NCBI RefSeq assembly: GCF_029338315.1
Contig: NZ_CP119794.1
Location: 930,001 to 994,000, forward strand
From: Haloarcula regularis
GTDB taxonomy: Archaea; Halobacteriota; Halobacteria; Halobacteriales; Haloarculaceae
Length of the DNA stretch: 64,000 bases
Reading direction: 5' to 3'
Under the pieces are notes generated by a model. That model saw nothing but the letters and a program-made list of their open reading frames with translations. It was not told the DNA's origin and made no database searches. The number at the start of each line of letters is the position of its first letter. Within the stretch, counting starts at the first letter, position 1. Made by a program: the position numbers and the translations under genes. Positions 26,669 to 44,530 of the stretch are shown in pieces.

Positions 26669-29149
26669 ATGGCAATTGACCACTCCGAGGACCGAGCGAC
26701 GGACCAGCTACAGGCCGGACCGGCGGACGAGGGCGCGACCGTCGGCGAGTACACCTGGGACGACCTCCGGCGGGAGGTCCACAGCGGCGGCCGGTTCGAC
26801 CGGAGCGAGTACCTCGGATTCGAACCGAACAAACTCCCACGGCACCTGGATGACGGGGCGAGCGCCGCCAAGTCACTCAACGACGTGTTCGAGTCACACA
26901 TCGACCCGAGCACGACGCCCGTGACGAAGGACGTCTACTCGTGGGAACACTTCAAACAGGAATACTACTACGAGGAGGGTGAGCGCCCGACGGACGGCGA
27001 GGGCAACGTCGTCCCGTTCGACGCGTCCGAGTACCTCGCGTTCGAGCCCGAGCAGACGGAGAACGTCCTCTCGTACGGCGAGGACCTCGCGGCCGAACTG
27101 GACGCCGTCGTCGACCGCAACACGGTCGACGTCAACCCCGACCTCGACGAGGACGCGTTCTTCTCGACACAGGAGGGCTACACGACCGTCGTCAACCGCT
27201 ACGACTTGGAGAAGGCGGTGCCACAGTCCAAGAAGTCCCACTTCAATGAACTCGAACGCTACTGGGTCAACAAGCCCTTCGCCTGCGTCGTCATCTTCCA
27301 CTCCCGGAAAGAAAACGAGAAGAAGTACTACGTCATCGAACCGCACCGCAACCCCATCGAGTCGGACCTCATGTCCTTCCTCTCGGGCAAGCTCAAGACG
27401 GCCATCAAGTACTCCGAGGACGACGTCATCGTCCAGGGGTCAGAGGCCGACCGCGCCGACGTCATCCAGCGCGAAGCCGAGCAGCTGCTCTCGCGGTACG
27501 ACCTCTACGACGGGTCCGTCGGGAGCTCGGGCGACGACGAGAGTTTCGTGGGGCAGGTAAAGAGCCTCCTCGGGATGGAGACCGAGTCCGAGCAGAGCGG
27601 GGGGCCACTCGAGGGCATCTCCGCGCGACCGGAACCGGCCATCCTCGAGGACGATCCGAAGACGCTCACCGAGTACCAGGTCGAGAAGCTGCTCTACATG
27701 CTCAAGCGGGACTTCATCGGCTACGCCCGCATCGACGGCATCAAACACGACATCAACGTCGAGGACATCTCCTGTGACGGCTACAACTCGCGGGTGTTCG
27801 TCTACCACACCGACTACGAACAGATCATCTCGAACGTCGAACACGGCGAGGGCGAACTCGACGACTTCGTCGTGAAACTGGCCCAGCGGTCGGGCAAGGG
27901 CATCTCGAAGCGGCAACCGCAGGTCGACGCGACGCTGCCCGACGGGTCGCGTGCCCAGCTGACCCTGGGTCGTGAAGTCTCGGACCACGGGACGAACTAC
28001 ACGATTCGTCAGTTCAAGGACGTCCCGTTCACTCCAATCGACCTCATCAACTGGAACACCTTCTCGCTCGACGAGATGGCGTTCCTGTGGCTCTGTATCG
28101 AGAACAACAAGAGCCTCATTTTCGCCGGTGGGACGGCGTCCGGGAAGACCACCTCGCTCAACGCCGTCTCTCTGTTCATCCCCTCGAACTCGAAGATCGT
28201 CTCCATCGAGGACACCCGCGAGGTCGAGCTCCCCCAGCGCAACTGGGTCGCGAGCGTCACCCGCCCCTCGTTCGGCGAGGACGACAAAGGGGACGTCGAC
28301 GAGTTCGACCTGCTGGAGGCCGCGCTCCGACAGCGGCCCGACTACATCGTCATGGGTGAGATCCGTGGCGAGGAGGGTCGTACCCTCTTCCAGGTCATGT
28401 CCACGGGCCACACGACCTACACCACCTTCCACGCCGACTCGGTCGGCGAGGTCATCAAGCGCTTCACCACCGAACCGATCAACGTCTCGAAGACCCTGTT
28501 CACGGCGCTGGACCTGGTCTCCATCCAGACCCAGACGCGGGTCGACGGCAACAAGGTCCGCCGGAACAAGTCCCTGACCGAGATCAACGAGTACTCCGCC
28601 GAGAACGACGAGATCAACGTCAGGGACGTCTACGAGTGGCGGGCCCAGCGCGACGAGTACGTCCAGATGGGCAACTCCAACACCTTAGAGGAGATCAAGT
28701 TCGACCGCGGGTGGACCCAGGAGAAGCTGGACGAGGAGATATTCAAGCGCAAGGTCGTGCTCGCCTATCTCATCGAGCAACAGCTGAATACCTACACCCA
28801 GGTCGCGGCGACTATCCAGGCGTTCATCAACGACCCGGACACGATACTGACGCTCATCGCCAACGACCAGTTGCGAAACTCGCTCGAGGACCTCCGGGAG
28901 ATGGAGTCGGTCAAGATCGACATCGACCCCGCGAAAGAGGAGATGGTCCCCCGGCCCGAGGCGCCCGCGGAGATGGTCGAGGAGACAAAGGCCGTCCTCG
29001 ACGACGCCTCGTCGCTGTTCGACAGCTACCGGAGCCGCGACACCCCCGACATCGTCTCGGCCCTGATGGACGGCGAGATGGACCAGGAATCCGGGACCGA
29101 GGACGCCGTCGGGTTCGGCGAGTTCGTCCCGAAGGCCGGGGAGGAGTGA
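26669..29149 (+). CDS. pilB3: Type IV pilus assembly ATPase PilB3
   Basis: An 826-residue cytoplasmic secretion ATPase that powers assembly of archaeal type IV pili. The long acidic N-terminal region (about 1-330) carries two similar YTWDDL / YSWEHF blocks, each followed by SEYLGFEPN / SEYLAFEPE. The T2SSE core follows: GGTASGKTTSLNA (Walker A), IVSIEDTREVELPQ (Asp box), RQRPDYIVMGEIRGEEG (Walker B) and VMSTGHTTYTTFHADS (His box). It is immediately followed by PilC3, the usual haloarchaeal pair. The length is large for the family because of the halophilic extension. Confidence 0.9.
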   Translation: MAIDHSEDRATDQLQAGPADEGATVGEYTWDDLRREVHSGGRFDRSEYLGFEPNKLPRHLDDGASAAKSLNDVFESHIDPSTTPVTKDVYSWEHFKQEYYYEEGERPTDGEGNVVPFDASEYLAFEPEQTENVLSYGEDLAAELDAVVDRNTVDVNPDLDEDAFFSTQEGYTTVVNRYDLEKAVPQSKKSHFNELERYWVNKPFACVVIFHSRKENEKKYYVIEPHRNPIESDLMSFLSGKLKTAIKYSEDDVIVQGSEADRADVIQREAEQLLSRYDLYDGSVGSSGDDESFVGQVKSLLGMETESEQSGGPLEGISARPEPAILEDDPKTLTEYQVEKLLYMLKRDFIGYARIDGIKHDINVEDISCDGYNSRVFVYHTDYEQIISNVEHGEGELDDFVVKLAQRSGKGISKRQPQVDATLPDGSRAQLTLGREVSDHGTNYTIRQFKDVPFTPIDLINWNTFSLDEMAFLWLCIENNKSLIFAGGTASGKTTSLNAVSLFIPSNSKIVSIEDTREVELPQRNWVASVTRPSFGEDDKGDVDEFDLLEAALRQRPDYIVMGEIRGEEGRTLFQVMSTGHTTYTTFHADSVGEVIKRFTTEPINVSKTLFTALDLVSIQTQTRVDGNKVRRNKSLTEINEYSAENDEINVRDVYEWRAQRDEYVQMGNSNTLEEIKFDRGWTQEKLDEEIFKRKVVLAYLIEQQLNTYTQVAATIQAFINDPDTILTLIANDQLRNSLEDLREMESVKIDIDPAKEEMVPRPEAPAEMVEETKAVLDDASSLFDSYRSRDTPDIVSALMDGEMDQESGTEDAVGFGEFVPKAGEE

Positions 29150-29152
29150 CCG

Positions 29153-31195
29153 ATGAGCCTCAAGACGACGGACCGCCAGGAACTGACCAGCGGCGGCGCG
29201 CTGGGTGACACCTTCTACCCGGCCTACCAGCGGCTGTTCGACGAGGAGGGCGACTTCGTCCAGAGCGTCGAGGAGAAACTCGCCCAGGCCCGGATGGCCG
29301 ACAACGTCGAGATGTTCCTGGCGCGGGCCCTCGCCGTCGGCGTCATCGCCGGCCTGGCGCTGTGGCTCGTGGGGACGCTACTGGGTTACCTGCTGGTCAA
29401 CCTCCTGATTCCGAACCCCGCGGAGTTCACCTTCATCGGCATCCCCGTCTCAGACTCGACGTCGGCGCTCATCGACACGCTGAAGTTGCCGATTCTGGTG
29501 CTGTGTACCGGCCTCGTCTTCGGGTTCATCGGCTTCGCCGTCGGTTTCGGCTCGCTCGTCTCGATTCCTTACTTCCGGGCCGGGGCCCGGAAACGGGAGA
29601 TCAACGTCTTGCTTTCGGACTCCATCTCGTTCATGTACGCCCTCTCCGTGGGCGGACTGAACCAGCTCGAGATTCTGCACGCGATGGGGCAAGCCGACGA
29701 CACGTACGGCGAGGCCGCAAAGGAGTTCCAGTCTATTGTCTTAGAGACCGAGTACTTCGATACGGACTACCGGACGGCCGTCAGGAACCAGGCGCTCGAG
29801 ACCCCCTCCGACCAGCTCTCGCAGTTCCTGACCGACATGCTCTCGATCATCAACTCCGGGGGCGACATGACCTCGTTCCTGGAAGACCAGAAGGAGAAAC
29901 ACATGCGGACCGCCCGGCAGGAGCAGGAGAAGATGCTGGAGACGCTGGAGCTGTTCGGCGAGATGTACATGACACTCTCGCTGTTCCCGCTGCTCCTCAT
30001 CATCATCCTCGTCATCATGTCGATGATGGGCAACGCACAGACGATGCTCATCTACGGGACGGTGTACGGCCTGATTCCGCTCACCGGCATCGCCTTCCTC
30101 GTGCTCGTCTCGACGGTCACCCAGGACTCCGTCGGCGACGGCTACCTGCGGCCCAACAGCCGCGAGGAGGACGTCGTCGTCGACGAGGGCATCGGCGTGT
30201 TCAACCTCGGCCTCGTCGAGCAGTACACCGGGCGTCACGGTATCTTCGACCGCATCAAGAACCGCGAGGGCACGTACGAACTCACACAGATTCTGCTCAA
30301 ACCGCACCTGTTCTTCCGGGACCACCCGCTGCTGGTGCTGGGACTGACCGTCCCGACGTCCATCGTCGCGCTGGCAGTCACCATCGTGCTCGGGTGGGCG
30401 CCGCTGTCGGTCGACGGGATGGTCGCGAACCCCGTGCTGGGCACGTTCGCGTGGGTGTACGTCCCGCTGTACATCAACTTCCTCCCGCTGGCGGTCTTCT
30501 ACGAGTGGAACCAGCGCTCGCGGAAGGCCATCGTCGGCAACCTCTCGGAGAACCTCCGGAAGCTGGCCTCTGCCAACGACACCGGGATGACCCTGCTGGA
30601 ATCTATCAAGGTCGTCTCGGAGACGTCGGCCGGGAAGCTCTCCGACGAGTTCGAGACGATGCACGTGAAAGTCAACTACGGCACCAGCCTCAAGAACGCC
30701 CTCCGCGAGTTCAACAACAAGTACCACGTGCCCCGCCTGGCGCGGACGGTGAAGCTCATCGCGGAGGCCCAGGAGGCCTCCAGCCAGATTCAGGACGTGC
30801 TGTCGACGGCCGCACAGGCCGCCGAGAACCAGGACGACATCGAGCGCGAGCGCAAGTCACGCACCCGCATGCAGACGGTCATCATCATCATGACCTACCT
30901 GACGCTGTTGGGCGTGATGGCACTACTGAAGACGCAGTTCTTAGACGTCATGGCCGGCCTCTCCGCCCAGGCCTCGAACGCCGGCGGGTCGGGCGCGGTC
31001 GGCGGTGGCGGTGGCTTCGGGGGCAACGTCGACACGAACATGCTGTCGATGCTGTTCTTCCACGCGGTGACCCTGCAGGCCATCCTGTCGTCGTTCATCG
31101 CGGGCTACATCCGCGAGGTGAAACTCATCGCGGGTGTGAAGTTCGTCGTCATCCTCTCGACCATCGCGCTCGCCGTCTGGATACTGGTCGGGTGA
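29153..31195 (+). CDS. pilC3: Type IV pilus membrane platform protein PilC3
   Basis: A 680-residue polytopic protein with two T2SSF domains, about residues 145-330 and 470-590, each with the conserved SDSISFMYALSVGGL or RKLASANDTGMTLLESI start. Transmembrane helices occur at about 55-82, 100-135, 275-318, 400-460 and in the C-terminal third. A glycine-rich GGSGAVGGGGGFGG loop lies near 617-630. It anchors the pilus rod and interacts with PilB3. The ATG lies 3 nt after the pilB3 stop, so the genes are coupled. Confidence 0.9.
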   Translation: MSLKTTDRQELTSGGALGDTFYPAYQRLFDEEGDFVQSVEEKLAQARMADNVEMFLARALAVGVIAGLALWLVGTLLGYLLVNLLIPNPAEFTFIGIPVSDSTSALIDTLKLPILVLCTGLVFGFIGFAVGFGSLVSIPYFRAGARKREINVLLSDSISFMYALSVGGLNQLEILHAMGQADDTYGEAAKEFQSIVLETEYFDTDYRTAVRNQALETPSDQLSQFLTDMLSIINSGGDMTSFLEDQKEKHMRTARQEQEKMLETLELFGEMYMTLSLFPLLLIIILVIMSMMGNAQTMLIYGTVYGLIPLTGIAFLVLVSTVTQDSVGDGYLRPNSREEDVVVDEGIGVFNLGLVEQYTGRHGIFDRIKNREGTYELTQILLKPHLFFRDHPLLVLGLTVPTSIVALAVTIVLGWAPLSVDGMVANPVLGTFAWVYVPLYINFLPLAVFYEWNQRSRKAIVGNLSENLRKLASANDTGMTLLESIKVVSETSAGKLSDEFETMHVKVNYGTSLKNALREFNNKYHVPRLARTVKLIAEAQEASSQIQDVLSTAAQAAENQDDIERERKSRTRMQTVIIIMTYLTLLGVMALLKTQFLDVMAGLSAQASNAGGSGAVGGGGGFGGNVDTNMLSMLFFHAVTLQAILSSFIAGYIREVKLIAGVKFVVILSTIALAVWILVG

Positions 31196-31298
31196 CCGTC
31201 GACGGCGTTTCCCACGATCTCTCGCAGTGACCGTTAAGCCCACAGAACGCGCATCGGGAGAGAGTGCGGCCCCAGGTTCGCGCTCGGGAGTACGACAG

Positions 31299-31628
31299 AT
31301 GACATACGACGATGGACTCGCACACCGGATTCGCGAATCGCTCGGCGACCGGCCGGGACTGTCCGAGCAGGAGATGTTCGGCGGCATCGCGTTCATGACT
31401 CGTGGCAACATGGTCTGTGGCGTCATCGACGACGCCTTGCTCGCCCGTATCGGCCCGGAGACGTACGACGATGCCCTCGACGAACCGCACGTGCGGCCGA
31501 TGGATATCACCGGACGAGAGATGCGTGGCCTCGTCCTCGTCGACCCGCCGGGGCTCACCGCCGACGAGGCCTTCGAGACGTGGCTCGACCGCTGTCTCTC
31601 GTTCGCCGAGTCGCTGCCCGCGAAGTGA
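31299..31628 (+). CDS. TfoX N-terminal-domain protein
   Basis: A 109-residue protein (MTYDDGLAHRIRESL...). It contains QEMFGGIAFMTRGNMVCGV, the core of the TfoX/Sxy N-terminal domain, then a C-terminal helix (TADEAFETWLDRCLSFAESL). In gamma-proteobacteria TfoX co-activates competence genes, including pili. The archaeal stand-alone domain has no known function. It lies directly downstream of pilB3-pilC3, which is suggestive but unproven. Confidence 0.75.
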   Translation: MTYDDGLAHRIRESLGDRPGLSEQEMFGGIAFMTRGNMVCGVIDDALLARIGPETYDDALDEPHVRPMDITGREMRGLVLVDPPGLTADEAFETWLDRCLSFAESLPAK

Positions 31629-31711
31629 GTGGGGCCCGGCCACGGGGCGGCGGTAGCGCGGGCCCGGCACGACGTGGCGGCTTTTTCAGAGGGGGCGTTC
31701 AAACGTCGCAC

Positions 31712-31918
31712 GTGCCCCCCGAGAGAACCTGTCCCGACTGCGCGGAACCGCTCGAAGAGATGGAGTTCCAGGGGAGCGACGCACTGGGCTCGCTCGCTAT
31801 CGTCTCTCCGGCCTCGGACGACGGCTTCCTCAGCAGCCACCGGGCCGACGAGGTGCTGACGCCCGTGCCGTACGTCTGTCCCGAGTGCCGACGGACGCTG
31901 GTGTACGCGGAGGAATGA
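31712..31918 (+). CDS. Small zinc-ribbon protein, 68 residues
   Basis: GTG start at 31712 (MPPERTCPDCAEPLEEMEF). It has one CPDC and one CPEC knuckle near residues 7-10 and 54-57, so a single zinc ribbon. It belongs to the large set of haloarchaeal CPxC micro-proteins that bind nucleic acids or proteins. The role is unknown. It lies between the TfoX-like gene and the tRNA region. Confidence 0.6.
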   Translation: MPPERTCPDCAEPLEEMEFQGSDALGSLAIVSPASDDGFLSSHRADEVLTPVPYVCPECRRTLVYAEE

Positions 31919-32079
31919 ATAGACTCGCCGGAATCGAGCGACCGCGAAACGAATGCAACGTCGGCGACGAGATGAGTCGAGCGAAGCGAGACGAGTGGAC
32001 TCGCCGGGATTGAGCAGAATTTCGATTCTGCGATGTTTGGCGAGTCCACGGCTGAGGGAGCGAACGCGACTGAAGAAAG
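31919..32079. repeat. Two degenerate copies of the tRNA-Ala 3' end
   Basis: On the minus strand, downstream of tRNA-Ala, CCCGGCGAGTCCA-like sequence recurs twice, at about 31997-32012 (AATCCCGGCGAGTCCAC) and about 31921-31935 (ATTCCGGCGAGTCT), besides the genuine tRNA end at 32080-32096. A third GGCGAGTCCAC lies in the opposite orientation at about 32039-32049. Repeated tRNA 3' ends are the usual scar of integrase-mediated insertion and excision, or of local tRNA duplication. Confidence 0.6.
31974..32009 (+). repeat. 36-bp dispersed repeat, copy A
   Basis: GAGTCGAGCGAAGCGAGACG followed by AGTGGACTCGCCGGGA. A copy with two mismatches lies inverted at 54154-54189. It joins a GAGCGAAGCGAG palindrome-like block to a tRNA-Ala 3' end. 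Confidence 0.7.
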
Positions 32080-32151
32080 TGGACTCGCCGGGATTTGAAC
32101 CCGGGGCCTCTCCCATGCCAAGGGAGTGATCTACCCCTGATCTACGAGCCC
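32080..32151 (-). tRNA. tRNA-Ala (anticodon GGC)
   Basis: A cloverleaf can be drawn on the minus strand: acceptor GGGCTCG with CGAGTCC, including the G3-U70 pair that identifies tRNA-Ala; D arm TAGATCAGGGGTAGATC; anticodon stem CTCCC/GGGAG with loop TTGGCAT giving anticodon GGC (codon GCC); T arm CCGGGTTCAAATCCCGG. Discriminator A at 32080. CCA is not fully encoded. No intron. It lies between the zinc-ribbon gene and the pilin-like genes, which are on the other strand. Confidence 0.95.
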
Positions 32152-32180
32152 TCACGGCATTCACCAGTATCCGGTGGCCT

Positions 32181-32190
32181 TTCTTAAAGG
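32181..32190 (-). promoter_or_regulatory. TATA box of tRNA-Ala
   Basis: CCTTTAAGAA on the minus strand lies 30-39 nt before the tRNA 5' end at 32151. Confidence 0.45.
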
Positions 32191-32319
32191 CATCGAACCA
32201 CAGGGGAGGTGTGAGACGGTCCCGTACGACACAATTGATAATTGCGGCACAATGGCTAAGAGCATCCAGTACGAGCATCGGTCAGACGCAGTTACCAGGG
32301 TCATATCGGGTCAAGTATT

Positions 32320-32940
32320 ATGGATGTGCAACGGGACGGGAATCGCGAGGCACGTGGCCAGCGGGGACAGGCAGCGACAGAGCGCGGGCAGACGACGCTC
32401 GATTTCGCCATCGGTATGAGCCTCTTCCTCGCGGTCCTCATCTTCATTTTCCTGTTCGTTCCAGGGCTGCTGGCACCGTTTACGGCCGGCGGGCAGGAGG
32501 AGACGGTGTCGTCGAATCGGGTCGCAGACTACCTGGCGAAAGGGGCGCTCGGGACGCCGCGGGACCCGTTCGTCCTGGACACGCAGTGTACGATTCTCTT
32601 CTTCGATAACCAGACGGCCGCGGACAAGTGCGGTGGCGACTGGAGCGGCGACATGCCGGTCGAGGAGACGATGGGTCTCGACCCGGCGCGCCAGAACCTG
32701 AACGTCACCATCCGGGGGACGGCACCGAACAGCGGCGAGGAGGAGATTCTGTGCTGGGACGAGGACGACAACGTGCTCGTCGGCATCTCGCACGGGACGT
32801 GTGGCACCACCCCCGGCGATCCCGACGTCCCGTTCACGAGAGGCGACACGCCTCCGGACGCGAACGACGCGACGGTGACCGCCCTCCGCGTGGCCTCGCT
32901 GAAAGGGACGGACGTCACTGTCTACGTGGAGATGTGGTAG
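32320..32940 (+). CDS. Pilin-like protein 1 (DUF7287-like)
   Basis: A 206-residue protein with a type IV prepilin-like N-terminus: an R-G cleavage context (ERGQTTLDFAIGMSLF) followed by the hydrophobic helix AVLIFIFLFVPGLLAPF. The extracellular part holds four cysteines (QCTIL, KCGGD, ILCWD, GTCGT) that could form disulfides. Predicted processing by the archaeal prepilin peptidase PibD; secreted or pilus-associated. First of five small same-strand pilin-like genes. DUF assignment is from memory. The start is uncertain, because a downstream start nearer RGQTT is possible. Confidence 0.75.
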   Translation: MDVQRDGNREARGQRGQAATERGQTTLDFAIGMSLFLAVLIFIFLFVPGLLAPFTAGGQEETVSSNRVADYLAKGALGTPRDPFVLDTQCTILFFDNQTAADKCGGDWSGDMPVEETMGLDPARQNLNVTIRGTAPNSGEEEILCWDEDDNVLVGISHGTCGTTPGDPDVPFTRGDTPPDANDATVTALRVASLKGTDVTVYVEMW

Positions 32941-32941
32941 G

Positions 32942-33529
32942 ATGCGGGGCCAGGCACACACGCTGGAGGCCACCGTCGCGGGTCTGTTGATGCTCGCGAG
33001 TCTCGTCTTCGCGCTCCAGATGACGGCCGTGACGCCGCTGTCTGCGAGTACGTCCAGCCAGCACATCGAGAACCAGCAGCAGGCAACCGGGAGCGGCGTC
33101 CTCGCGGCGGCGGCCGAGGAAGGGGCGCTCAAGCCAGCGGTGCTGTACTGGAACAATGCCAGTAAGCGCTACCACGACACGAACGGGAACCTGGGCTACT
33201 ACACGAACGGCCCGCCAAACAACACCTTCGGCGAGATGCTCAACCGGTCGTTCGACCAGCGCGGCATCGCGTACAACGTCTACTTCACGTTCCAGAACAG
33301 CGGCGGGGAGAGTATCACTCAGCGCTACGTCTACAGTGGCGTCCCCAGCGACAACGCGGTGGCGGCATCCTACACGGTGACGCTCCTCGACGACGACCAC
33401 CTCTATAACGCAAACGAGACGCGAAACGCGACGGTGCTGACGGACCCGAACATCACGTACCCGATACCGGACACGGGCCGGACCGTGTTCAACACGGTCC
33501 GCGTGGAGGTGGTCGCGTGGCGCATCTAG
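32942..33529 (+). CDS. Pilin-like protein 2 (DUF7288-like)
   Basis: A 195-residue protein beginning MRGQAHTLEATVAGLLMLAS, an RG-Q prepilin cleavage context followed by a hydrophobic helix. The remainder is a secreted beta-rich domain with many Asn-x-Ser/Thr sequons (NNASK, NNTF, NRSF, NETRNAT, NIT) that could be N-glycosylated by the archaeal Agl system. ATG one base after the stop of the previous gene. Likely a minor pilin of the PilB3/C3 system (inference). Confidence 0.75.
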   Translation: MRGQAHTLEATVAGLLMLASLVFALQMTAVTPLSASTSSQHIENQQQATGSGVLAAAAEEGALKPAVLYWNNASKRYHDTNGNLGYYTNGPPNNTFGEMLNRSFDQRGIAYNVYFTFQNSGGESITQRYVYSGVPSDNAVAASYTVTLLDDDHLYNANETRNATVLTDPNITYPIPDTGRTVFNTVRVEVVAWRI

Positions 33530-34544
33530 CCCGCGAGGACCGCGGCCAGATAATCCTCATCGCCGCCTTCGCGCTGGCGGTGACGTTCATCGCGCTGGCG
33601 CTCATCGTCAACTCCGCCATCTTCACCGAGAACCTCGCCAGCCGGGGCGAGACGGGCGGGAGCGACGACGCACTCGAGGTGCGCGCGATGGTCGAGGCGA
33701 GCGTGGGCGAGGCCATCGCCGGCGCGAACGTCCACAACACGTCCGGGCTGGACGCCGGCGTGGAAGAGGGCATAGAGCAGACGACCGACCAGCTGGAGCT
33801 CCAGCAGGTCACCAACGGTGCGCTGGTGGAGGTGTCGCTGGTTCCGGGGTCGACGGTAGACGGCCTCCGTATCGCACAGAACGAGAGTGGCGGACGGGCC
33901 TTCGAGGACAACGCGATGTCCGGCGACGACGAGTGGGCGGTCGTCACCCGCGTCGAGCCCCACTCGGACCGGTACAACGCGACGCGAGCCTTCCGGATGA
34001 ACGTCTCGAGGCTCCCGGAATCAGACTACGCGTTCGTCGTCACCGCGAACGGGACCCAGGGAGAACCCACCTGGGAGATGCGCCTCTACAGCGACTCCGG
34101 CGGAGACGTCGACGCCAACGAGGACGTTACCGTCGAGGTCACCACGCCGAGCGGGAGCGAGCACTGCACGCACGAGACCGACCACCCCTACGTCCACGTC
34201 GACGTGACCGGGGGACCGTGGCCGGCGAACCGTGTGACGCGCTCAGGCGGGGCTTTTACGATGGGGGCGGAAACTCCACCGTCTTCGACGGTCGGTTCGC
34301 ACACGGCGTCGGGGACGAGCGGTACAACATCACCTTCGAGAATGGGACCCAGGTGACCGGAAACTACTCGCTCGTGACCAGGTCGACGGGCGCCAACCCG
34401 GCCCCAAAACTCAACGCCACCGTGGGGCTCTCGCCGTACGTCACCGACGCGGTCTACAACGTCAGCGTCCGGTTCGCCTACGAGACCTCGGAGGTCCGGT
34501 ACGAGACCAGGATTCGGGTCGCCCCGGGTGAGACAGATGCGTGA
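33517..34544 (+). CDS. Pilin-like protein 3 (DUF7261-like), one frame break
   Basis: About 342 residues after repair. The N-terminus EDRGQIILIAAFALAVTFIA is an RG-Q prepilin context plus a hydrophobic helix. A long extracellular beta domain with N-glycosylation sequons follows. The G run at 34210-34214 is one base short (DVTGG then TVAGEPCDALRRGFYDGGG expected). After it the frame reads NYSLVTRSTGANPAPK and ends VRYETRIRVAPGETDA. The start is a GTG overlapping the previous gene by 13 nt. The stop overlaps the next gene. Confidence 0.75.
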
Positions 34545-34983
34545 GGATCGTGCCGTCTCCACGGCGCTCGGGTACGTCTTGACCCTCTCTATCGCGTCCC
34601 TGCTCGTGACGGGCCTGCTCGTCGCGGGCAGCGGCTTCGTCGAAGACCGCCGCGAGCAGGTCGTCCGGGAGGAGCTGACCGTCATCGGCCAGCAGGTCGG
34701 GTCCGACCTGGCCCGGGCGGACCGGCTCGTCCTCGCGGCGGACAGCAGTGGCGGGGACCTGACGGTCCAGCTCAACCGGACCTACCCCGACCGCGTGACG
34801 GGGAGTCCCTACCGGATAGCCGTCGATAAATCGAGCGAGCAGGTCGTGCTCGCCGCGTCGAAGCCGGAAGTCACGGTGACGGTCGGCGTCACTCACGAAA
34901 CGCCGCTCCGGGACTCCTCGGCGGACGGCGGGAACATTCAGCTGGCCTACGACAGCGGGGATCTGGTGATCAGCGATGTCTGA
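34537..34983 (+). CDS. Pilin-like protein 4 (DUF7266-like)
   Basis: A 148-residue protein starting MREDRAVSTALGYVLTLSIA, a DRA-V class III signal context, followed by a hydrophobic helix to about residue 32. The rest is a small beta domain (GGDLTVQLNRTYPDRV, VVLAASKPEVTVTVGV). It overlaps the previous stop by 8 nt and the next start. The compact size and single N-terminal helix fit a minor pilin. Confidence 0.75.
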   Translation: MREDRAVSTALGYVLTLSIASLLVTGLLVAGSGFVEDRREQVVREELTVIGQQVGSDLARADRLVLAADSSGGDLTVQLNRTYPDRVTGSPYRIAVDKSSEQVVLAASKPEVTVTVGVTHETPLRDSSADGGNIQLAYDSGDLVISDV

Positions 34984-35719
34984 GCGGGCGGTCAGCGAAG
35001 TGCTGAGCTTCACGCTGGTGTTCGCGCTAATAGTGACCTCGGTCGCCATCGTGTCGGTGAGCGGCCTCGGGAGCCTCCAGGACGTGCGTGACGCGGAGCA
35101 ACTCGAGAACGCGGAACGCGCCTTCGACGTGCTGGCCGACAACCTCGCGGATCTCCACCGGCAGGGCGCCCCGAGCAGGGCGACCGAGATCAGCCTCGGC
35201 CAGGCGCAGCTGGCGACCGAGGACAACGTCACGATGACCGTCAAAGTCGAAGACGACAGTGGGACCACGATCGACGTCGGGACCTGGGAGATTCGGCCGC
35301 TGGTCTACAGCGGCAACCAGGACCGAGAGCTCGTCTACGAGGCCGGCGCCATCTTCCGGACCAACCGCGACAGCGGGTTCGTCGTGCGCGACCCGCCGCT
35401 GGTGGTCGACGACGACCGGGTACTGCTCTCGATTATCGGCCTCAACTCGCCGCAGGTCCAGAGCCTCGGTGGGTCGACAGTGCTGGTCCGGGCCACCCAC
35501 CGCGAGGCCGACGTCGCGTTCTCGCGGACGGACGGGTCCATCCAGTCGCTGACGGTACAGGTCGAGTCCCCGCGTGAGGCCCAATGGGAACAGTACTTCG
35601 AGTCACACGGGTTCACCTGTACCGGCAGCGCGCCGGTGTCGTGTGAGTACGACCCCGGGAGCAACTTCGAGCGGGTCTACGTCGTCTACCACGACATCGG
35701 TGTCGGCATCGACGAGTAG
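34976..35719 (+). CDS. Pilin-like protein 5 (DUF7289-like)
   Basis: A 247-residue protein starting MSERAVSEVLSFTLVFALIV, the archaeal pilin/archaellin RAVSEV signature, then helix VTSVAIVSVSGLG. The extracellular part is beta-rich, with two cysteines (FTCTGSAPVSCEYDP) near the end that could form a disulfide. Last of five overlapping plus-strand genes. It meets the minus-strand gene at 35723 tail to tail with 3 nt between. Confidence 0.75.
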   Translation: MSERAVSEVLSFTLVFALIVTSVAIVSVSGLGSLQDVRDAEQLENAERAFDVLADNLADLHRQGAPSRATEISLGQAQLATEDNVTMTVKVEDDSGTTIDVGTWEIRPLVYSGNQDRELVYEAGAIFRTNRDSGFVVRDPPLVVDDDRVLLSIIGLNSPQVQSLGGSTVLVRATHREADVAFSRTDGSIQSLTVQVESPREAQWEQYFESHGFTCTGSAPVSCEYDPGSNFERVYVVYHDIGVGIDE

Positions 35720-35722
35720 GCC

Positions 35723-37468
35723 TCACCCACTCGTGACGTTCAGTTTGTTCTCCGAGATGTGGAGATAGGTCAGCCGGATGATGTTGGTCTGGGGCGGGAT
35801 GGCGCGCTGGCCCAGGAGCGCCTGGTCGTAGTGGACCGTCCCGCCGTTGTCCAGTTCGACGTTGCCGGCGACGATGCCGCCGTAGAGATGTGCCTTGCCG
35901 ATGTAGACGTCGCTCGACCCGGTGATGCCTGCGGGCGCGTAGATGACGCCCTCGTAGCGGATGGTCGAGGAACTCGACCCGCTGATGTGGGCCGCGAAGT
36001 CGGACTTGCCGTAGAGCCAGAACTGCGAGGCGTTCTGGTTGTCCGCCACGTCGACGACGCCGCCGGAGTTCGGTATCGAGAAGTGGGCGTCTCCGTTCGT
36101 CGTTTTACCCTGGACGAACACGCGAACCTCCCCGTCTCCGATCACTTCGATGCGGCCGTCCTGCTTGAGTTCCACGTAGTCACGGACCGCGATGACGATA
36201 TCTCCGGACCCGGTGTCGAGCGTCAACGTATCGTCGTCGAGCGTCAGCCTGTCGAGGTAGTAGACGCCCTCGGTGAGCGTCTGGTCGCCGCTGTCGAGCG
36301 TGTCGCTCGTGATGGGGACGCCGGCGTCGCCGTTGTCGTTGTCGGCGCTCGCGTTGTCGACCTGCTGCTGGACAAAGCCGTCGATGGGAGCGGCGCCGTC
36401 GACGCCGCCGATCTGGGAGACGCTCCCCTCGACAGTGCCCTGTATCTTCTTGCTCGAGGTGTACTCGACGCTGCCGTTGACCCGCCCGCTCCCCTTGACC
36501 TCGACGCGGTCGCCGGAGCGGATCGACCCGTTGACCTCGCTGTTGCCCGTGACCACGACGTCGCCCGCGGTGGTGACGGTGCCGAAGGCACCCCTGGTGT
36601 CGGCGTACGCGCCCGTCCCCACCGAGGAGTCGTAGCTGTCGGTCCGGGCGGGGTCGCCACCGTTGCCCGAGAGGCGAATCTCGCCGCCGGCGGCCGTCGC
36701 GGCGACGGCACTGGTCACCTCCCGCGGGCCGGTCGGGACCGTCAGCGTGGCGGTGACCCGCTGGTTCGGGTGGTCGTAAGAGGCCTTGCCGTCGGTCCGC
36801 TCCTCGAAGTACCGGCCCCAGGCGCGGTAGTACTCGCTGGTGACGGTGACGTTGACGACGCCGGTCTCGAGGGGGTTCGTCCGGTCGGCGCTCGCGTCGG
36901 GGTAGACCTGGGTCGTCTCGTCGCGGGTCAGCGAGGCCCGGCCGGACAACGTCGTGTCGCCGGAGACGGTGATCAACGGGAGCGTCAGCGTCGCGTCGCG
37001 GTAGTAGAACTCCGGCGGCGAGACCATCACGGTCCCGTTCCGGGACTGCTTCCAGACGCCGCCGCCCTGGTAGGCGACCTGGCGGTCCTCGTTCTCGTAG
37101 ACGACGGCGCCGAGCGGGACGTCGAGCAGGGTCGTCGTGGTCGCCGGGTCCGCAGAGGTGTTCGTGATGGTGATCTCCATCCGACCGGCCCCGCCGTCGA
37201 CGCGGTACCGGGCGCCCTGGACCCGCGAGAGCGACACCTGCCGGCCGTTCGAAGCGCCCAGCGCGACCATCGCCGCCTCGGAGTCCAGCTGTGTCATCAC
37301 TTTCTCCGAGCGCGAGACGTCCAGTCCAGCCTCGGTGTCGGTGAGCGCCGTCGCGCCCAGCCCAACGACCAGCGTCGACCCGACGATAACCATACTGAAT
37401 GCGAGCAACAGTCCGAGCGGCGCGGACTGCGCGCGCTGTCGACCCTCGCGGCGACGCCAACCGGTCAT
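35723..37468 (-). CDS. Large pilin-like beta-repeat protein A
   Basis: A 581-residue exported protein. The N-terminus has REGRQRAQSAPLGLLLAFSM, a basic patch followed by a hydrophobic helix, like class III signals. Residues about 50-240 form a beta domain with MVSPPEFYYRDATLTLPLI and YYRAWGRYFEERTDGKASYD. Residues about 285-350 hold short repeated strands (VVVTGNSEVNGSIRSGDRVE, VKGSGRVNGSVEYTSSKKIQ) resembling a bactofilin-like beta-helix. The C-terminal DUF7305-like part has ALLGQRAIPPQTNIIRLTYL. Possible adhesin or pilus cap. It is a tandem paralogue of the gene at 37628. Confidence 0.7.
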   Translation of the reverse strand: MTGWRRREGRQRAQSAPLGLLLAFSMVIVGSTLVVGLGATALTDTEAGLDVSRSEKVMTQLDSEAAMVALGASNGRQVSLSRVQGARYRVDGGAGRMEITITNTSADPATTTTLLDVPLGAVVYENEDRQVAYQGGGVWKQSRNGTVMVSPPEFYYRDATLTLPLITVSGDTTLSGRASLTRDETTQVYPDASADRTNPLETGVVNVTVTSEYYRAWGRYFEERTDGKASYDHPNQRVTATLTVPTGPREVTSAVAATAAGGEIRLSGNGGDPARTDSYDSSVGTGAYADTRGAFGTVTTAGDVVVTGNSEVNGSIRSGDRVEVKGSGRVNGSVEYTSSKKIQGTVEGSVSQIGGVDGAAPIDGFVQQQVDNASADNDNGDAGVPITSDTLDSGDQTLTEGVYYLDRLTLDDDTLTLDTGSGDIVIAVRDYVELKQDGRIEVIGDGEVRVFVQGKTTNGDAHFSIPNSGGVVDVADNQNASQFWLYGKSDFAAHISGSSSSTIRYEGVIYAPAGITGSSDVYIGKAHLYGGIVAGNVELDNGGTVHYDQALLGQRAIPPQTNIIRLTYLHISENKLNVTSG

Positions 37469-37472
37469 TGCC

Positions 37473-37502
37473 GCTCCTTTGTTATCATGTGTGATAAATT
37501 AA
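37473..37502 (-). promoter_or_regulatory. TATA box, shared motif and ribosome site of large pilin-like gene A
   Basis: TTAATTTATC lies about 29 nt before the ATG at 37468, and AAAGGAGC about 5 nt before it. The upstream GCCACT block also occurs before the paralogue. Confidence 0.5.
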
Positions 37503-37627
37503 GTGGCCATCTACCGAATTCGTGCTTAATTGAAACGCCAGCGGGAATATATACTCGACGCCCCGGCTATCAGACGTGAAACCTCGTGTCGGCCCCCCTC
37601 AGACGAGCCGACACCGGTCCCCGACAG

Positions 37628-39412
37628 TCAATCCTCGAACCGCACCGTGTTCTCGGAGACGTGCACGTACGTGATCTTCACGACGTTCGCACTCCGACTG
37701 ACGACCTGCGTGTCTCCGAGTGCCCGGTCGTAGTGGATGCGGCCCTTGGTGTCGATATTCACGTCACCGGAGACGATGCCGCCGTAGACGTCCCCGTTTT
37801 CGACCCGGAAGCCCCCAGGGCCGTCAGCGCCGACAGGAGCCCAGAGCACGCCGGTGAACTGACCCCCGTTCACCGATGCGTTGAACGTGTCGTTCGCGTA
37901 GAAGCGAAGCTGTGGGGCGTCGTCGCCGGGGACGGAGACCGTGCCACCGTGGACTCTGAGACCGGCATCGCGCCAGCCCGAGACGCTCACCTTCCCGTCG
38001 CTCGGGTTCGACCCCATCGTCCGGACGTAGACGTTGACGCGGTTGTCCCCCTGGACGTCGATGGTGCCGCTCACGTCGACGTACTCGTCGACGACGATGG
38101 TGATCGCGCCATCGTCCGTGTCGAGCTCCAGCGTCTCGCCGCTGGCGAGGTCGATGCGCTCGAGGTGGTACCGGCCCCCGTTCTCGATCGTGACCGTCGA
38201 CCGACTCGAGAAGTCGAGCGTGGGGTCCGGTCCGCTCGTTATCGCGTCGTAGCTGTCGTTGGCGTCGTCGTTGTCGTTGTCGTCGGCCACCTCTTTCCCC
38301 ATCGTGGCGACGAAGCTATTCAGCGGTGACCGCGTGCTGACACCGGATATCTGCTCCTCGCTATTGTACGTGGCGCTCCCGGACGCGGAGAAGCTGTTCG
38401 TCCAGTAGATATCGCCGTTGATGTCGGCGTTGCCGGTGATGTCGACGTCGGACCCCGACCGAATGTTCCCGTTGAAGTTTGCGTTGCCCTGATAGTCGAC
38501 GTAGCCGCCGAACGTGACGTTCCCGTTCGACCCCGTGGCGCCCGAGGAGTATTGTGAACAGTAGTCGCCCGGCTCCGACGAGTTGTAGCTGTCGGTGTAG
38601 AACGGGTTCGGTCCGGGCGGGTCCCCACAGGGACGCCCCCCGTTGCCCTGGACGTTGAGACTACCGGACGAGAGTCCGGCCACGGCCGATGTGAGTTTGG
38701 TGTTCCCGATGGGCGTCACCAGGTCGATGGTCACCCGTTCGTTGGGCGGGTCGTAACTGACCTCCCCGTCGGTCCGCGTCTCGAAGTAGTGTCCCCACGC
38801 CCGGTAGTAGTCGCTCGTTATCGTGACGACGATGGTCCCGTTCTGAATGGGGTTCGAGACGTCTACCTCGTTGGCTTTGGTCCGTCGAACCGACGCTGTC
38901 TCGCTCAGCGAGGAGTCACCCTCGACACTGATGATCGGGAACGTCAGCGTCGCGTTCCGGTAGTGAAACTCCGGCGGCGAGATCATCACCGACCCGCCGT
39001 CCGTCGCTTTCCAGACGCCACCGCCCTGATATGCGAGGGTGTTGCTCGCCCCAGTTGTGCGGACCGAACCGAGGTCACGGTCGACGAGCGTGACAGTTCC
39101 ACTCGGTTTCTCGTGCTCGACAGTGACGTGCCCGGCTGTCTCGTCCAATACGTATCCATCGTTCACCCCACTCGGGATGTGGACAGTCCGAGCGTTCGAA
39201 CTGCCGAGCGCGACCAGCGCCGTCTCGGAATCCAGCTGCGTCAGGGCTTGCTCCGACCGTTCGTTTGCCAGCTGATCTTGCGTCGTCGCAATTGCTCCAG
39301 ACCCCAGCGCGACGACAGCCGTCGCGCCGATAAACATCACTGCAAACACCAGCAGGAGGCCCAGGGGTGCGCTCTGTGCGCGGGTTCCCAACTGAGGCTC
39401 TCTGGACCCCAT
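37628..39412 (-). CDS. Large pilin-like beta-repeat protein B
   Basis: A 594-residue paralogue of the protein encoded at 35723. The N-terminus TRAQSAPLGLLLVFAVMFIG precedes a hydrophobic helix. Shared blocks include MISPPEFHYRNATLTFPIIS, YYRAWGHYFETRTDGEVSYD and GSDVDITGNADINGDIYWTN, with C-terminal RALGDTQVVSRSANVVKITY. Two cysteines flank GGRPCGDPPGPNPFY and GDYCSQYSSG, an insertion not in copy A. Overall similarity looks moderate, so the duplication is old or fast-evolving. Likely secreted and tethered by its N-terminal helix. Confidence 0.7.
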   Translation of the reverse strand: MGSREPQLGTRAQSAPLGLLLVFAVMFIGATAVVALGSGAIATTQDQLANERSEQALTQLDSETALVALGSSNARTVHIPSGVNDGYVLDETAGHVTVEHEKPSGTVTLVDRDLGSVRTTGASNTLAYQGGGVWKATDGGSVMISPPEFHYRNATLTFPIISVEGDSSLSETASVRRTKANEVDVSNPIQNGTIVVTITSDYYRAWGHYFETRTDGEVSYDPPNERVTIDLVTPIGNTKLTSAVAGLSSGSLNVQGNGGRPCGDPPGPNPFYTDSYNSSEPGDYCSQYSSGATGSNGNVTFGGYVDYQGNANFNGNIRSGSDVDITGNADINGDIYWTNSFSASGSATYNSEEQISGVSTRSPLNSFVATMGKEVADDNDNDDANDSYDAITSGPDPTLDFSSRSTVTIENGGRYHLERIDLASGETLELDTDDGAITIVVDEYVDVSGTIDVQGDNRVNVYVRTMGSNPSDGKVSVSGWRDAGLRVHGGTVSVPGDDAPQLRFYANDTFNASVNGGQFTGVLWAPVGADGPGGFRVENGDVYGGIVSGDVNIDTKGRIHYDRALGDTQVVSRSANVVKITYVHVSENTVRFED

Positions 39413-39524: not shown

Positions 39525-40073
39525 TCACTCGTACGTGACGGTAGTCTGTGACGGAACCGGCTGCAGGACGTAACTCGTGGCAGCACCGCGCTGGGCGGGA
39601 CGGAGGCCTGCCGTGACGATGGTGGCGTCGCCGGTCCGGACCTCGAACGGCTCGCCGAACGTCAGTGGACCGTCGTCGGGCGTCGTAACCACCGCCTCGC
39701 GGCCGTCTGTCAGTGCGGCGTCGATGCCGGCGACCACGAGCTTGAGATAGACGTACTGGCCCGTCATCAGCTCCTGTTCGAACGCGAAGGCGGTCCCGTC
39801 GTCGGCTACCTCGACCAGGTCCACCGACACGTCCTCGACAGAAAAGAGCAACTCGGCGCCCTCGTGTTCCTCCGTTTCGGTGGCAGCTGCCGCCGGGAGC
39901 ACGCGCAACTCGCTGACCGTGACGACACAGGATTCGAAGTCCGCGACGGCACCCGAGTCGTCCCGGAACCGCGTCACGAGGAGCCCCGTCTCGCCGTCCC
40001 GACCGGGACAGCCCGCGAGCGCACCGCTGCCGGCCACGAAGCCGGCCGTCCGGAGGAAGTCACGGCGCTGCAT
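39525..40073 (-). CDS. TAT lipoprotein with DUF4382 domain
   Basis: A 182-residue exported protein. The twin-arginine signal MQRRDFLRTAGFVAG is followed by the lipobox LAGC (Cys22). The mature part (TGLLVTRFRDDSGAVADFES, VEDVSVDLVEVADDGTAFAF, YVYLKLVVAGIDAALTDGRE) matches the DUF4382 beta-sandwich layout, which is common in haloarchaeal and bacterial surface proteins. The function is unknown. The start at 40073 is preferred to longer upstream frames. Confidence 0.75.
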   Translation of the reverse strand: MQRRDFLRTAGFVAGSGALAGCPGRDGETGLLVTRFRDDSGAVADFESCVVTVSELRVLPAAAATETEEHEGAELLFSVEDVSVDLVEVADDGTAFAFEQELMTGQYVYLKLVVAGIDAALTDGREAVVTTPDDGPLTFGEPFEVRTGDATIVTAGLRPAQRGAATSYVLQPVPSQTTVTYE

Positions 40074-40301
40074 AGCGTGGAGGTACACGAGTCCATTATA
40101 AATGTCTGCTGCCCGCTCCCGCGAGATAGAAACCGTTTTGTCGGGCCGGCGACCAGGTCCCGGTGGGAACAGCACGACCGCAAATCTGACACGCCGCGGG
40201 CTTCCGCGGCTCGGGATTGCGGCCGTGTTCGGCATCAGCCGATGCCAATACGCCTCGCTACCGGTTAGCGACGAGCGGTCTGTGCCGTTCCAACCAGAAC
40301 T
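40074..40301. other. Divergent promoter region before the S15 operon
   Basis: 228 nt with AT-rich patches near 40096-40115 (toward the lipoprotein gene) and near 40255-40275. No gene or repeat seen. Confidence 0.4.
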
Positions 40302-40766
40302 ATGGCACGAATGCACACACGCCGCCGCGGCTCGTCCGACTCGGACAAGCCCGTGGCAGACGAACCCCCGGAGTGGAGCGACGTCGACGAGGACGCCATC
40401 GAGGCACGCGTCGTCGAACTCGCCGAACAGGGCCACTCGCCCAGCGAGATCGGCCTGCAACTGCGCGACGAGGGCGTTCAGGGCACTCCCGTCCCGAACG
40501 TCAAACTCGCGACCGGCAAGAAGGTGACCGAGATCCTCGAGGCAAACGACGCCGACCCCGACCTCCCCGAGGACCTCCGCAACCTCATGGAGCGCGCCGT
40601 GCGCCTCCGCGAGCACATGGACGAGAACCCAGGCGACCACCAGAACAAGCGTGCGCTCCAGAACACGCAGTCGAAGATCCGCCGGCTCGTCGACTACTAC
40701 CGCGGTGACGAGCTCGACGAAGACTTCACGTACAGCTACGACACCGCCGTCGAGCTCCTCGAGTGA
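40302..40766 (+). CDS. rps15: 30S ribosomal protein S15
   Basis: A 154-residue archaeal uS15. It has MARMHTRRRGSSDSDKPV, IEARVVELAEQGHSPSEIG, LRDEGVQGTPVPNVKLATGK and a C-terminal KRALQNTQSKIRRLVDYYRG, all family hallmarks. It binds 16S rRNA in the platform of the small subunit. It is the first gene of a coupled cluster whose next start overlaps its stop (TGATG). Confidence 0.95.
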   Translation: MARMHTRRRGSSDSDKPVADEPPEWSDVDEDAIEARVVELAEQGHSPSEIGLQLRDEGVQGTPVPNVKLATGKKVTEILEANDADPDLPEDLRNLMERAVRLREHMDENPGDHQNKRALQNTQSKIRRLVDYYRGDELDEDFTYSYDTAVELLE

Positions 40767-43322: not shown

Positions 43323-44480
43323 TCAATCCCGGAAGGTCAGACCGCCGCGCAGGTCGCGCGCGTCGGCCAGCAGCGCGTCCCGGTCGACGTCGTCCGGACC
43401 GGTCAGCGTGACGTGGCCCATCTTCCGCAGTTCGTAGACCTCGCGCTTGCCGTACCAGTGGAGGTGCGCCCGCGGCGTCGCGAGCACCTCGCGCTCGCCG
43501 TGGAGTTCGGCGGCCTGGCGCTCCTCGACGTCGCCCAGGACGTTGGTCGAGACGGTCGGGTATCGCTGCTCGGTCGACCCGAGCGGGAGGCCAGCGACGG
43601 CCCGGACGTGCTGTTCGAACTGGGAGGTGTGACAGCCCTCGATGGTCCAGTGCCCGGAGTTGTGCGGGCGGGGCGCGATCTCGTTGAGCAGGATCTCGTC
43701 GTCGCTGGTCTGGAACAGTTCGATGCCGAAGACGCCGCGGCCCTCCATCACGTCGAGGACGTCACGGGCCACCTCGCGGGCGCGCTCGCGGACCGTCTCG
43801 TCTGCGCGGGCGGGAGCGACCGACTCCCGGAGGATCTCTTCCTCGTGGATGGTCTCGGTCACCGGGTAGGTGTCGCGCTCGCCGTCGCCCCGACAGCCCA
43901 TCACCGCGAGCTCGCGCTCGAAGTCGACCATCTCCTCGACCATCGCGGGACCGGCGATGGTCTCGATAGCGTCCTCGACGTCCTCGGGGCCCTCGACGGG
44001 GACGTTCCCGCGGCCGTCGTAGCCGCCGGTCCGGGCCTTGAGCATCGCCGGGTAGCCCAGTTCCTCACAGGCGTCCCGGAGGTCGTCGGCCGTCTCGACG
44101 GCGCGGTACTCGGGGACCGGGACGCCGGCCTCGGAGAGGCGGCGCTTCTGGACGAGCTTGTCCTGGATAGTCCGCAGCGTCGCCGGTTTGGGGTGGACCG
44201 GCGTGCCCGTCTCGGCGGCGACGGCCTCGAGGACGTCCGGATCGGCCAGCTCTATCTCGAAGGTGAGGTAATCCGAGCGCTCGGCCAGTTCGCGGAACGT
44301 CTCGCGGTCCTCGAACCCGCCGACCAGCTGGTCGCGGACCACCGGCGCGGCCGGGCAGTCCGGCGTCGGGTCGGCGACGACCAGTTCGAGCCCCAGGGGG
44401 GCCGCGGCCTCCCCCATCATGCGCCCGAGCTGGCCGCCGCCGACCACGCCGACGGTCGGGCCTGGCGAAGTGAGTGTCAT
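43323..44480 (-). CDS. purK: 5-(carboxyamino)imidazole ribonucleotide synthase
   Basis: A 385-residue ATP-grasp enzyme that carboxylates AIR to N5-CAIR with ATP and bicarbonate in purine synthesis. It has VGVVGGGQLGRMMGEAAAP, PATLRTIQDKLVQKRRLSEA, PAMLKARTGGYDGRGNVPVE, VFGIELFQTSDDEILLNEIA and PRPHNSGHWTIEGCHTSQFE, a textbook PurK pattern. ATG at 44480. Its partner PurE is not adjacent but lies 10 kb away (54281). The upstream gene Agl23 runs into this frame only because of a frameshift. Confidence 0.95.
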   Translation of the reverse strand: MTLTSPGPTVGVVGGGQLGRMMGEAAAPLGLELVVADPTPDCPAAPVVRDQLVGGFEDRETFRELAERSDYLTFEIELADPDVLEAVAAETGTPVHPKPATLRTIQDKLVQKRRLSEAGVPVPEYRAVETADDLRDACEELGYPAMLKARTGGYDGRGNVPVEGPEDVEDAIETIAGPAMVEEMVDFERELAVMGCRGDGERDTYPVTETIHEEEILRESVAPARADETVRERAREVARDVLDVMEGRGVFGIELFQTSDDEILLNEIAPRPHNSGHWTIEGCHTSQFEQHVRAVAGLPLGSTEQRYPTVSTNVLGDVEERQAAELHGEREVLATPRAHLHWYGKREVYELRKMGHVTLTGPDDVDRDALLADARDLRGGLTFRD

Positions 44481-44530
44481 GTCGCGGGCTTCCGGGGCGG
44501 CGCGCTTAAGCGTTGACTTCTGACCCGGTC

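Follow-up and report, generated by a model that had tools for sequence, protein, structure and literature searches.

In a 64,000-nucleotide stretch of the Haloarcula regularis genome (contig NZ_CP119794.1, positions 930,001 to 994,000; hereafter the window, whose own numbering is used below), we analyzed a locus encoding a secretion ATPase, its platform protein, five small pilin-like proteins and two large paralogous proteins (Table 1). An initial annotation, made from the sequence alone, had listed these same parts, and Pfam matches, signal motifs and 40% identity between the two large proteins bore it out. The arrangement differed in two respects. The five small genes (32320-35719, +) do overlap or nearly abut, as had been stated, but they do not directly follow the platform gene: 1.1 kb with a TfoX_N open reading frame (ORF), a small zinc-ribbon-like ORF and tRNA-Ala(GGC) intervenes. 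The two large genes, which had been called convergent, converge on the five-gene cluster but not on each other, forming a tandem pair on the minus strand.

Table 1. Features of the pilus-type locus, with positions in the window
Feature	Position	Strand	Evidence
Secretion ATPase (motor), PilB4-type, 826 amino acids (aa)	26669..29149	+	T2SSE E=9.8e-32
Platform protein, PilC4/TadC-type, 680 aa	29153..31195	+	two T2SSF domains
tRNA-Ala(GGC), syntenic landmark, not part of the machine	32079..32151	-	
DUF7287 pilin-like protein, RGQTTLDF signal	32320..32940	+	Pfam E=1.5e-36; motif in 124/125 homologues
DUF7288 pilin-like protein, RGQAHTLE signal	32942..33529	+	Pfam E=9.3e-66; motif in 131/131 homologues
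DUF7261 pilin-like protein, RGQI signal, frameshifted near 34211	33517..34544	+	ORFs 33517-34356 and 33933-34544
DUF7266 pilin-like protein, RAVS signal	34528..34983	+	Pfam E=2.4e-24; motif in 131/132 homologues
Insert-free DUF7289 pilin-like protein, RAVS signal	34976..35719	+	Pfam E=3.6e-71; hhalign to large family 99.9%
Predicted large modular pilin 1, DUF7289 head and DUF7305 insert, 581 aa	35723..37468	-	
Large 1: class III signal RAQS and N-terminal pilin helix (residues ~12-69)	37262..37435	-	
Large 1: DUF7305 insert (residues 348-551)	35816..36427	-	solenoid-like strands in model
Predicted large modular pilin 2, DUF7289 head and DUF7305 insert, 594 aa	37628..39412	-	
Large 2: DUF7305 insert (residues 350-567)	37712..38365	-	

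The profile match between the large proteins and the product of the fifth small gene (hhalign, 99.9%) indicates that the large proteins are enlarged paralogues of the small DUF7289 protein. In their alignment the head and the end (~ITYLHVSENxV) were conserved and the middle was variable, and DUF7305 (E=2.2e-43 and 7e-30 in the two proteins) is placed, in sequence, between the pilin head and the conserved last strand. An AlphaFold model of large 1, built on 55 sequences, had a mean predicted local distance difference test (pLDDT) score of 88.9. In it, a helix at residues 19-69 led into a beta head, after which came numerous short strands of solenoid-like character at ~298-548 and a 13-residue last strand at 568-580. 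Both the pilin helix and the solenoid-like strands that the initial annotation had said to look for were therefore present in the model. The best Foldseek match in the PDB was the Thermus thermophilus pilin ComZ (6qvi; E=2.5e-4, probability 0.60, template-modeling [TM] score 0.15), followed by ice-binding beta-solenoids; numerically this match is weak, although the modeled architecture agrees. Profile searches of PDB sequences with the large proteins returned no significant relative and did not return ComZ, the sole hit being a weak similarity at the N terminus to Natrinema PilA2. The repeats had been described as bactofilin-like; the scores of 22.7 and 17.2 bits did not reach the cut-off of 27.9 bits, and we rejected that assignment. 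No Pfam match to a PilY1 or DUF2341 domain, the type found in PilY1/PilC tip adhesins, was obtained in the large proteins scanned.

In each of the five small proteins, a hydrophobic helix comes after a signal context of the form R[GA]Q or R[AG]VS. The motifs were R[GA]QT in DUF7287, R[GA]QA in DUF7288, R[GA]Q[LI] in DUF7261, and R[AG]VS in both DUF7266 and the small DUF7289 protein. In four of these five families at most one of the 118-132 homologues lacked the motif, and in DUF7261 it was present in 119 out of 125. The motif of the large proteins, R[AG]QS, was likewise near-universal. Because the motifs are kept in this way among homologues, their occurrence is beyond chance. Thus, all six families have the class III signal expected of type IV pilins, and the model of large 1 has the long N-terminal helix. 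The small genes had been interpreted as five minor pilins, a count that needs amending: Makarova et al. 2016 (PMC4858521) predict that arCOG03926, a family belonging to the set of this system, is the major pilin.

The motor and platform had initially been labeled PilB3 and PilC3. However, the window ATPase scored 22 bits against both PilB3_N and PilB3_C, under the 27-bit cut-offs, whereas the true PilB3 ATPase of Haloferax denitrificans scored 206 and 177 bits, respectively; the latter gene adjoins methyltransferase and DUF4382 genes, which is the order of HVO_1034 to HVO_1030. The window ATPase was 47% identical to this true PilB3, compared with 66% for an ortholog encoded elsewhere in the genome of the window (C1:506493-508061). 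The sub-cut-off scores, together with the presence of this ortholog, exclude a PilB3/C3 identity for the window pair. The window ATPase has 826 aa, its Haloferax counterpart 1104 aa and PilB3 566 aa. In haloarchaea, Makarova et al. recognize a second Clade 2 system, PilB4 (HVO_1160), whose ATPase has extra terminal domains and which has a TadC-type partner and pilins of its own. The window locus fits that description: a larger T2SSE ATPase adjoins a T2SSF platform, and the locus encodes a set of class III signal proteins of its own. A locus in H. denitrificans (L113) has S3Ae, tRNA-Ala and all seven families in common with the window. The Haloferax volcanii PilB3-C3/PilA pilus belongs to the same motor and platform superfamily but uses a different ortholog, and its locus holds no pilins. 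In H. volcanii proteomes, PilB4 has been detected solely in glycerol minimal medium (PMC7305310). The machine had been called complete, but no prepilin peptidase is encoded in the locus, and a Peptidase_A24 gene lies elsewhere in the genome at C1:2333953. The same genome carries a second full copy of the system at C1:132000-151999, comprising PilB, PilC, a large DUF7289 and DUF7305 protein and five small genes; its ATPase was 66% identical to that of the window.

To determine how widely the locus is conserved, we examined two sets of loci. A search with the large proteins yielded 77 named loci, and all five small genes were present in 65 of them. An unbiased sample of 60 loci was chosen on DUF7288 alone and covered ~50 haloarchaeal genera. 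Of these, 56 had all five small genes, 50 had PilC, 48 had PilB and 38 had a large DUF7289 protein. Where a convergent large gene was present, its stop codon lay a median of 31 bp from that of the cluster. Among the loci surveyed, the motor and platform genes were thus kept together with the pilin-like set and the genes of the large candidate tip proteins as one conserved locus, as the initial annotation had proposed. At the genome level, DUF7288 was detected in 138 and DUF7305 in 91 of 145 genomes of the class; DUF7305 was nearly restricted to this class within the phylum, occurring in 3 genomes beyond it. All DUF7305-positive genomes had DUF7288 (91 out of 91), compared with 47 out of 54 DUF7305-negative genomes (Fisher p=0.0008). 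The initial annotation had considered that large genes might occur widely without the motor. This does occur in one family (coded f3), in which the large genes lie apart in arrays of 1-5 with no PilB or PilC within ~9 kb, but the genome-level association with DUF7288 held without exception. In five such loci (L182 [G104:C22:70000-89900], L183-L185 and L191), up to five tandem large DUF7289 proteins of very different lengths, most with DUF7305, were encoded with no pilus motor within ~9 kb. These arrays could be a store of spare heads.

The middle of the large protein varied among lineages. Scanning 43 large proteins revealed DUF7289 in all 43, DUF7308 in 20, DUF7305 in 16, Pilin_N in five, and vWA and CARDB in two each. 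DUF7308 forms the middle in Haloferax, Halorientalis, Halobellus and Natronomonas, whose proteins at this site keep the head and the end; at other loci the middle is vWA, CARDB/Ig or of no recognized type. DUF7305 and DUF7308 were unrelated by profile (probability 0.2%), and the shared terminal motif was present in 61 out of 83 DUF7305-type and 41 out of 41 DUF7308-type proteins. A model of a DUF7308-type protein (pLDDT 79) had no significant PDB match. We then compared two quick trees, one of the head and one of four concatenated neighboring locus proteins; the nearest relatives of the window in both were Haloarcula species. Changes between the DUF7305 and DUF7308 types numbered ten on the locus tree, seven of which were forced by supported branches, and one on the head tree. 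Because of this difference, head and module appear to travel together, with whole genes apparently being replaced. Shuffling of inserts between heads was not supported, as the insert types were nearly monophyletic on the head tree; whole-gene replacement or differential loss fits better, and between these two we infer replacement. Giant pilin-like proteins (1,262-1,311 aa) were also seen beside tRNA-Ala near the cluster at L044:15845-19633, L049:17730-21542, L095:16963-20784 and L103:16547-20482; the one scanned, from L095, combined CARDB and MG2 domains with a DUF7289 head.

Taking these results together, we think that the large proteins are probably modular tip pilins, acting as adhesins or receptors, of a PilB4-type pilus, and that they appear to be exchanged as whole-gene cassettes. 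A PibD-type peptidase, encoded outside the locus, would cut the pilins, which the ATPase and platform would then polymerize. Pilin subunits, namely minor pilins and possibly also the major one, would come from the five small genes, and the two large convergent genes would supply modular minor pilins in which a solenoid-like DUF7305 module is set into a DUF7289 pilin ahead of the last strand. Because so bulky a module is difficult to fit within the fiber, such a large subunit would most likely start or cap the filament and display its module at the tip, where it would serve as adhesin or receptor in the way suggested for ComZ. This tip-displayed role, drawn from knowledge of type IV pili, ComZ and modular pilins, is the most likely one. 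Replacement of the entire large-pilin gene across haloarchaea, with the machine held constant, would then alter what the pilus binds. It is plausible, if somewhat doubtful, that replacing this one convergent tip-pilin gene as a cassette switches what a conserved pilus grips, with at least five unrelated modules (the DUF7305 solenoid, DUF7308, vWA, CARDB/Ig and one unknown) on one pilin socket and spare-head arrays in one family.

How archaeal type IV pili recognize surfaces is poorly known, and no tip adhesin had been named for haloarchaeal pili in the literature that we searched. This locus supplies a defined candidate: its fold is solidly predicted, alternative modules form a natural series for comparison, and the organisms that carry it are open to cultivation and manipulation. 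DUF7289, DUF7305 and DUF7308, which are families of unknown function, also gain testable functions from it, and the idea of modular pilins, surveyed so far in bacteria, is extended to archaea. If cassette replacement is true, what the pilus binds would change while the machine stays.

Several comparisons place this proposal among known systems. The PilB4 system itself is known. Its arCOG02911, a FlaFind-positive minor pilin of ~250-550 aa that is prone to duplication and variable in length, fits DUF7289; the portion of Makarova et al. used here describes it as a typical Ig-like pilin and describes no inserted module, solenoid, tip role or exchange of types. We found no paper naming DUF7261, DUF7266, DUF7287, DUF7288, DUF7289 or DUF7305, and, as far as we searched, the modular architecture of DUF7289 and its apparent cassette replacement have not been described. 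ComZ (PMC6561018) is a DNA-binding pilin whose sheet has a large beta-solenoid built into it, and the tip has been argued to be the only place where it fits. Like the large proteins as modeled, it combines a pilin with solenoid strands, and it is encoded beside minor pilins; however, it is bacterial, we found no sequence relation between the two, and the haloarchaeal insert varies in type. Streptococcus sanguinis PilB (vWA) and PilC (lectin-like) (PMC8179133) also carry a display module on a pilin, and vWA likewise occurs on a DUF7289 head. In the S. sanguinis proteins the module follows the pilin part via a short loop, whereas in the large haloarchaeal proteins it precedes the conserved last strand. 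The main text of that 2021 survey of modular pilins covers bacteria and does not mention archaea.

A number of observations weigh against a tip pilin exchanged as a cassette. The low TM score and the probability of the ComZ match give it limited force, and a ComZ-like placement of the insert within the pilin beta-sheet is judged from its position in the sequence and the strands of the model. A profile test between the last strand of the large proteins and that of small DUF7289 gave no homology signal. Of the 60 DUF7288 loci, 22 lacked a large protein within ~9 kb of the operon. The large gene is tandemly duplicated, which a single-copy tip does not need. Some type changes could reflect ancient duplication with differential loss, given that the trees were quick ones. 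Finally, the placing of these proteins in a pilus is a prediction from genes and models.

Some of these same features bear on where the large proteins would act. They might be structural or decorating subunits along the shaft, a role that Makarova et al. propose for this system's pilins and that would suit the occurrence of the large genes in tandem pairs and in arrays with as many as five copies, which suggests more than one copy per system. We consider this unlikely: a helical pilus leaves little room for a rigid insert of 200-300 residues, an argument also made for ComZ, and the operon already has a small DUF7289 gene without an insert. Slightly less likely still is that the large proteins stay in the membrane or S-layer, as a scaffold or a surface enzyme or adhesin, and share just the signal peptide pathway with pilins. 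The f3 arrays without PilB or PilC and the giant CARDB/Ig forms of >1,200 aa agree with such a location, but the association of DUF7305 with DUF7288 and the retention across families of the convergent site beside the operon argue against it.

Other alternatives concern what the apparatus does. The best structural match, ComZ, binds DNA, and the insert could accordingly be a DNA receptor of a pilus for DNA uptake or exchange. This seems improbable, since beta-solenoids take many ligands and ice-binding-like solenoids matched too, and the vWA and CARDB modules at other loci point to varied ligands. We give even less weight to a pseudopilus-like secretion piston in place of an extended pilus. Several minor pilins plus one large cap do resemble the textbook GspH-I-J-K set of type II secretion in number, but no secreted cargo is known, which is a weak point because the loci were searched for pilus families only. 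A modular tip pilin remains our preferred interpretation.

Further investigation of the reading frames revealed that the DUF7261 gene of the window had lost one base in a G run near 34211, whereas its relatives are single intact ORFs of ~300-345 aa and the copy at C1:132000-151999 is intact. A second ATPase gene of the same genome carries an internal stop. By eye, a frameshift in the ORF at 43323-46448 apparently joins a membrane glycosyltransferase-like part to an unrelated PurK-like part. Because other frames of this genome are broken too and the relatives are intact, the DUF7261 break is likely an assembly error, and the frame breaks at 34211 and 43323-46448 suggest indel errors in the assembly. 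In other genomes, loci L134, L135, L151 and L171 had the cluster without detectable DUF7261, and in many genomes of family f3 DUF7261 was only ~130-160 aa long. Next to the large genes lies a DUF4382 protein gene (39525-40400, -); Haloferax, by contrast, has a DUF4382 gene close to its PilB3 locus. An S15-Halobacteria ribosomal protein leader (RF03143, 80.2 bits) was found at 40163-40228 (+), upstream of the S15 gene.

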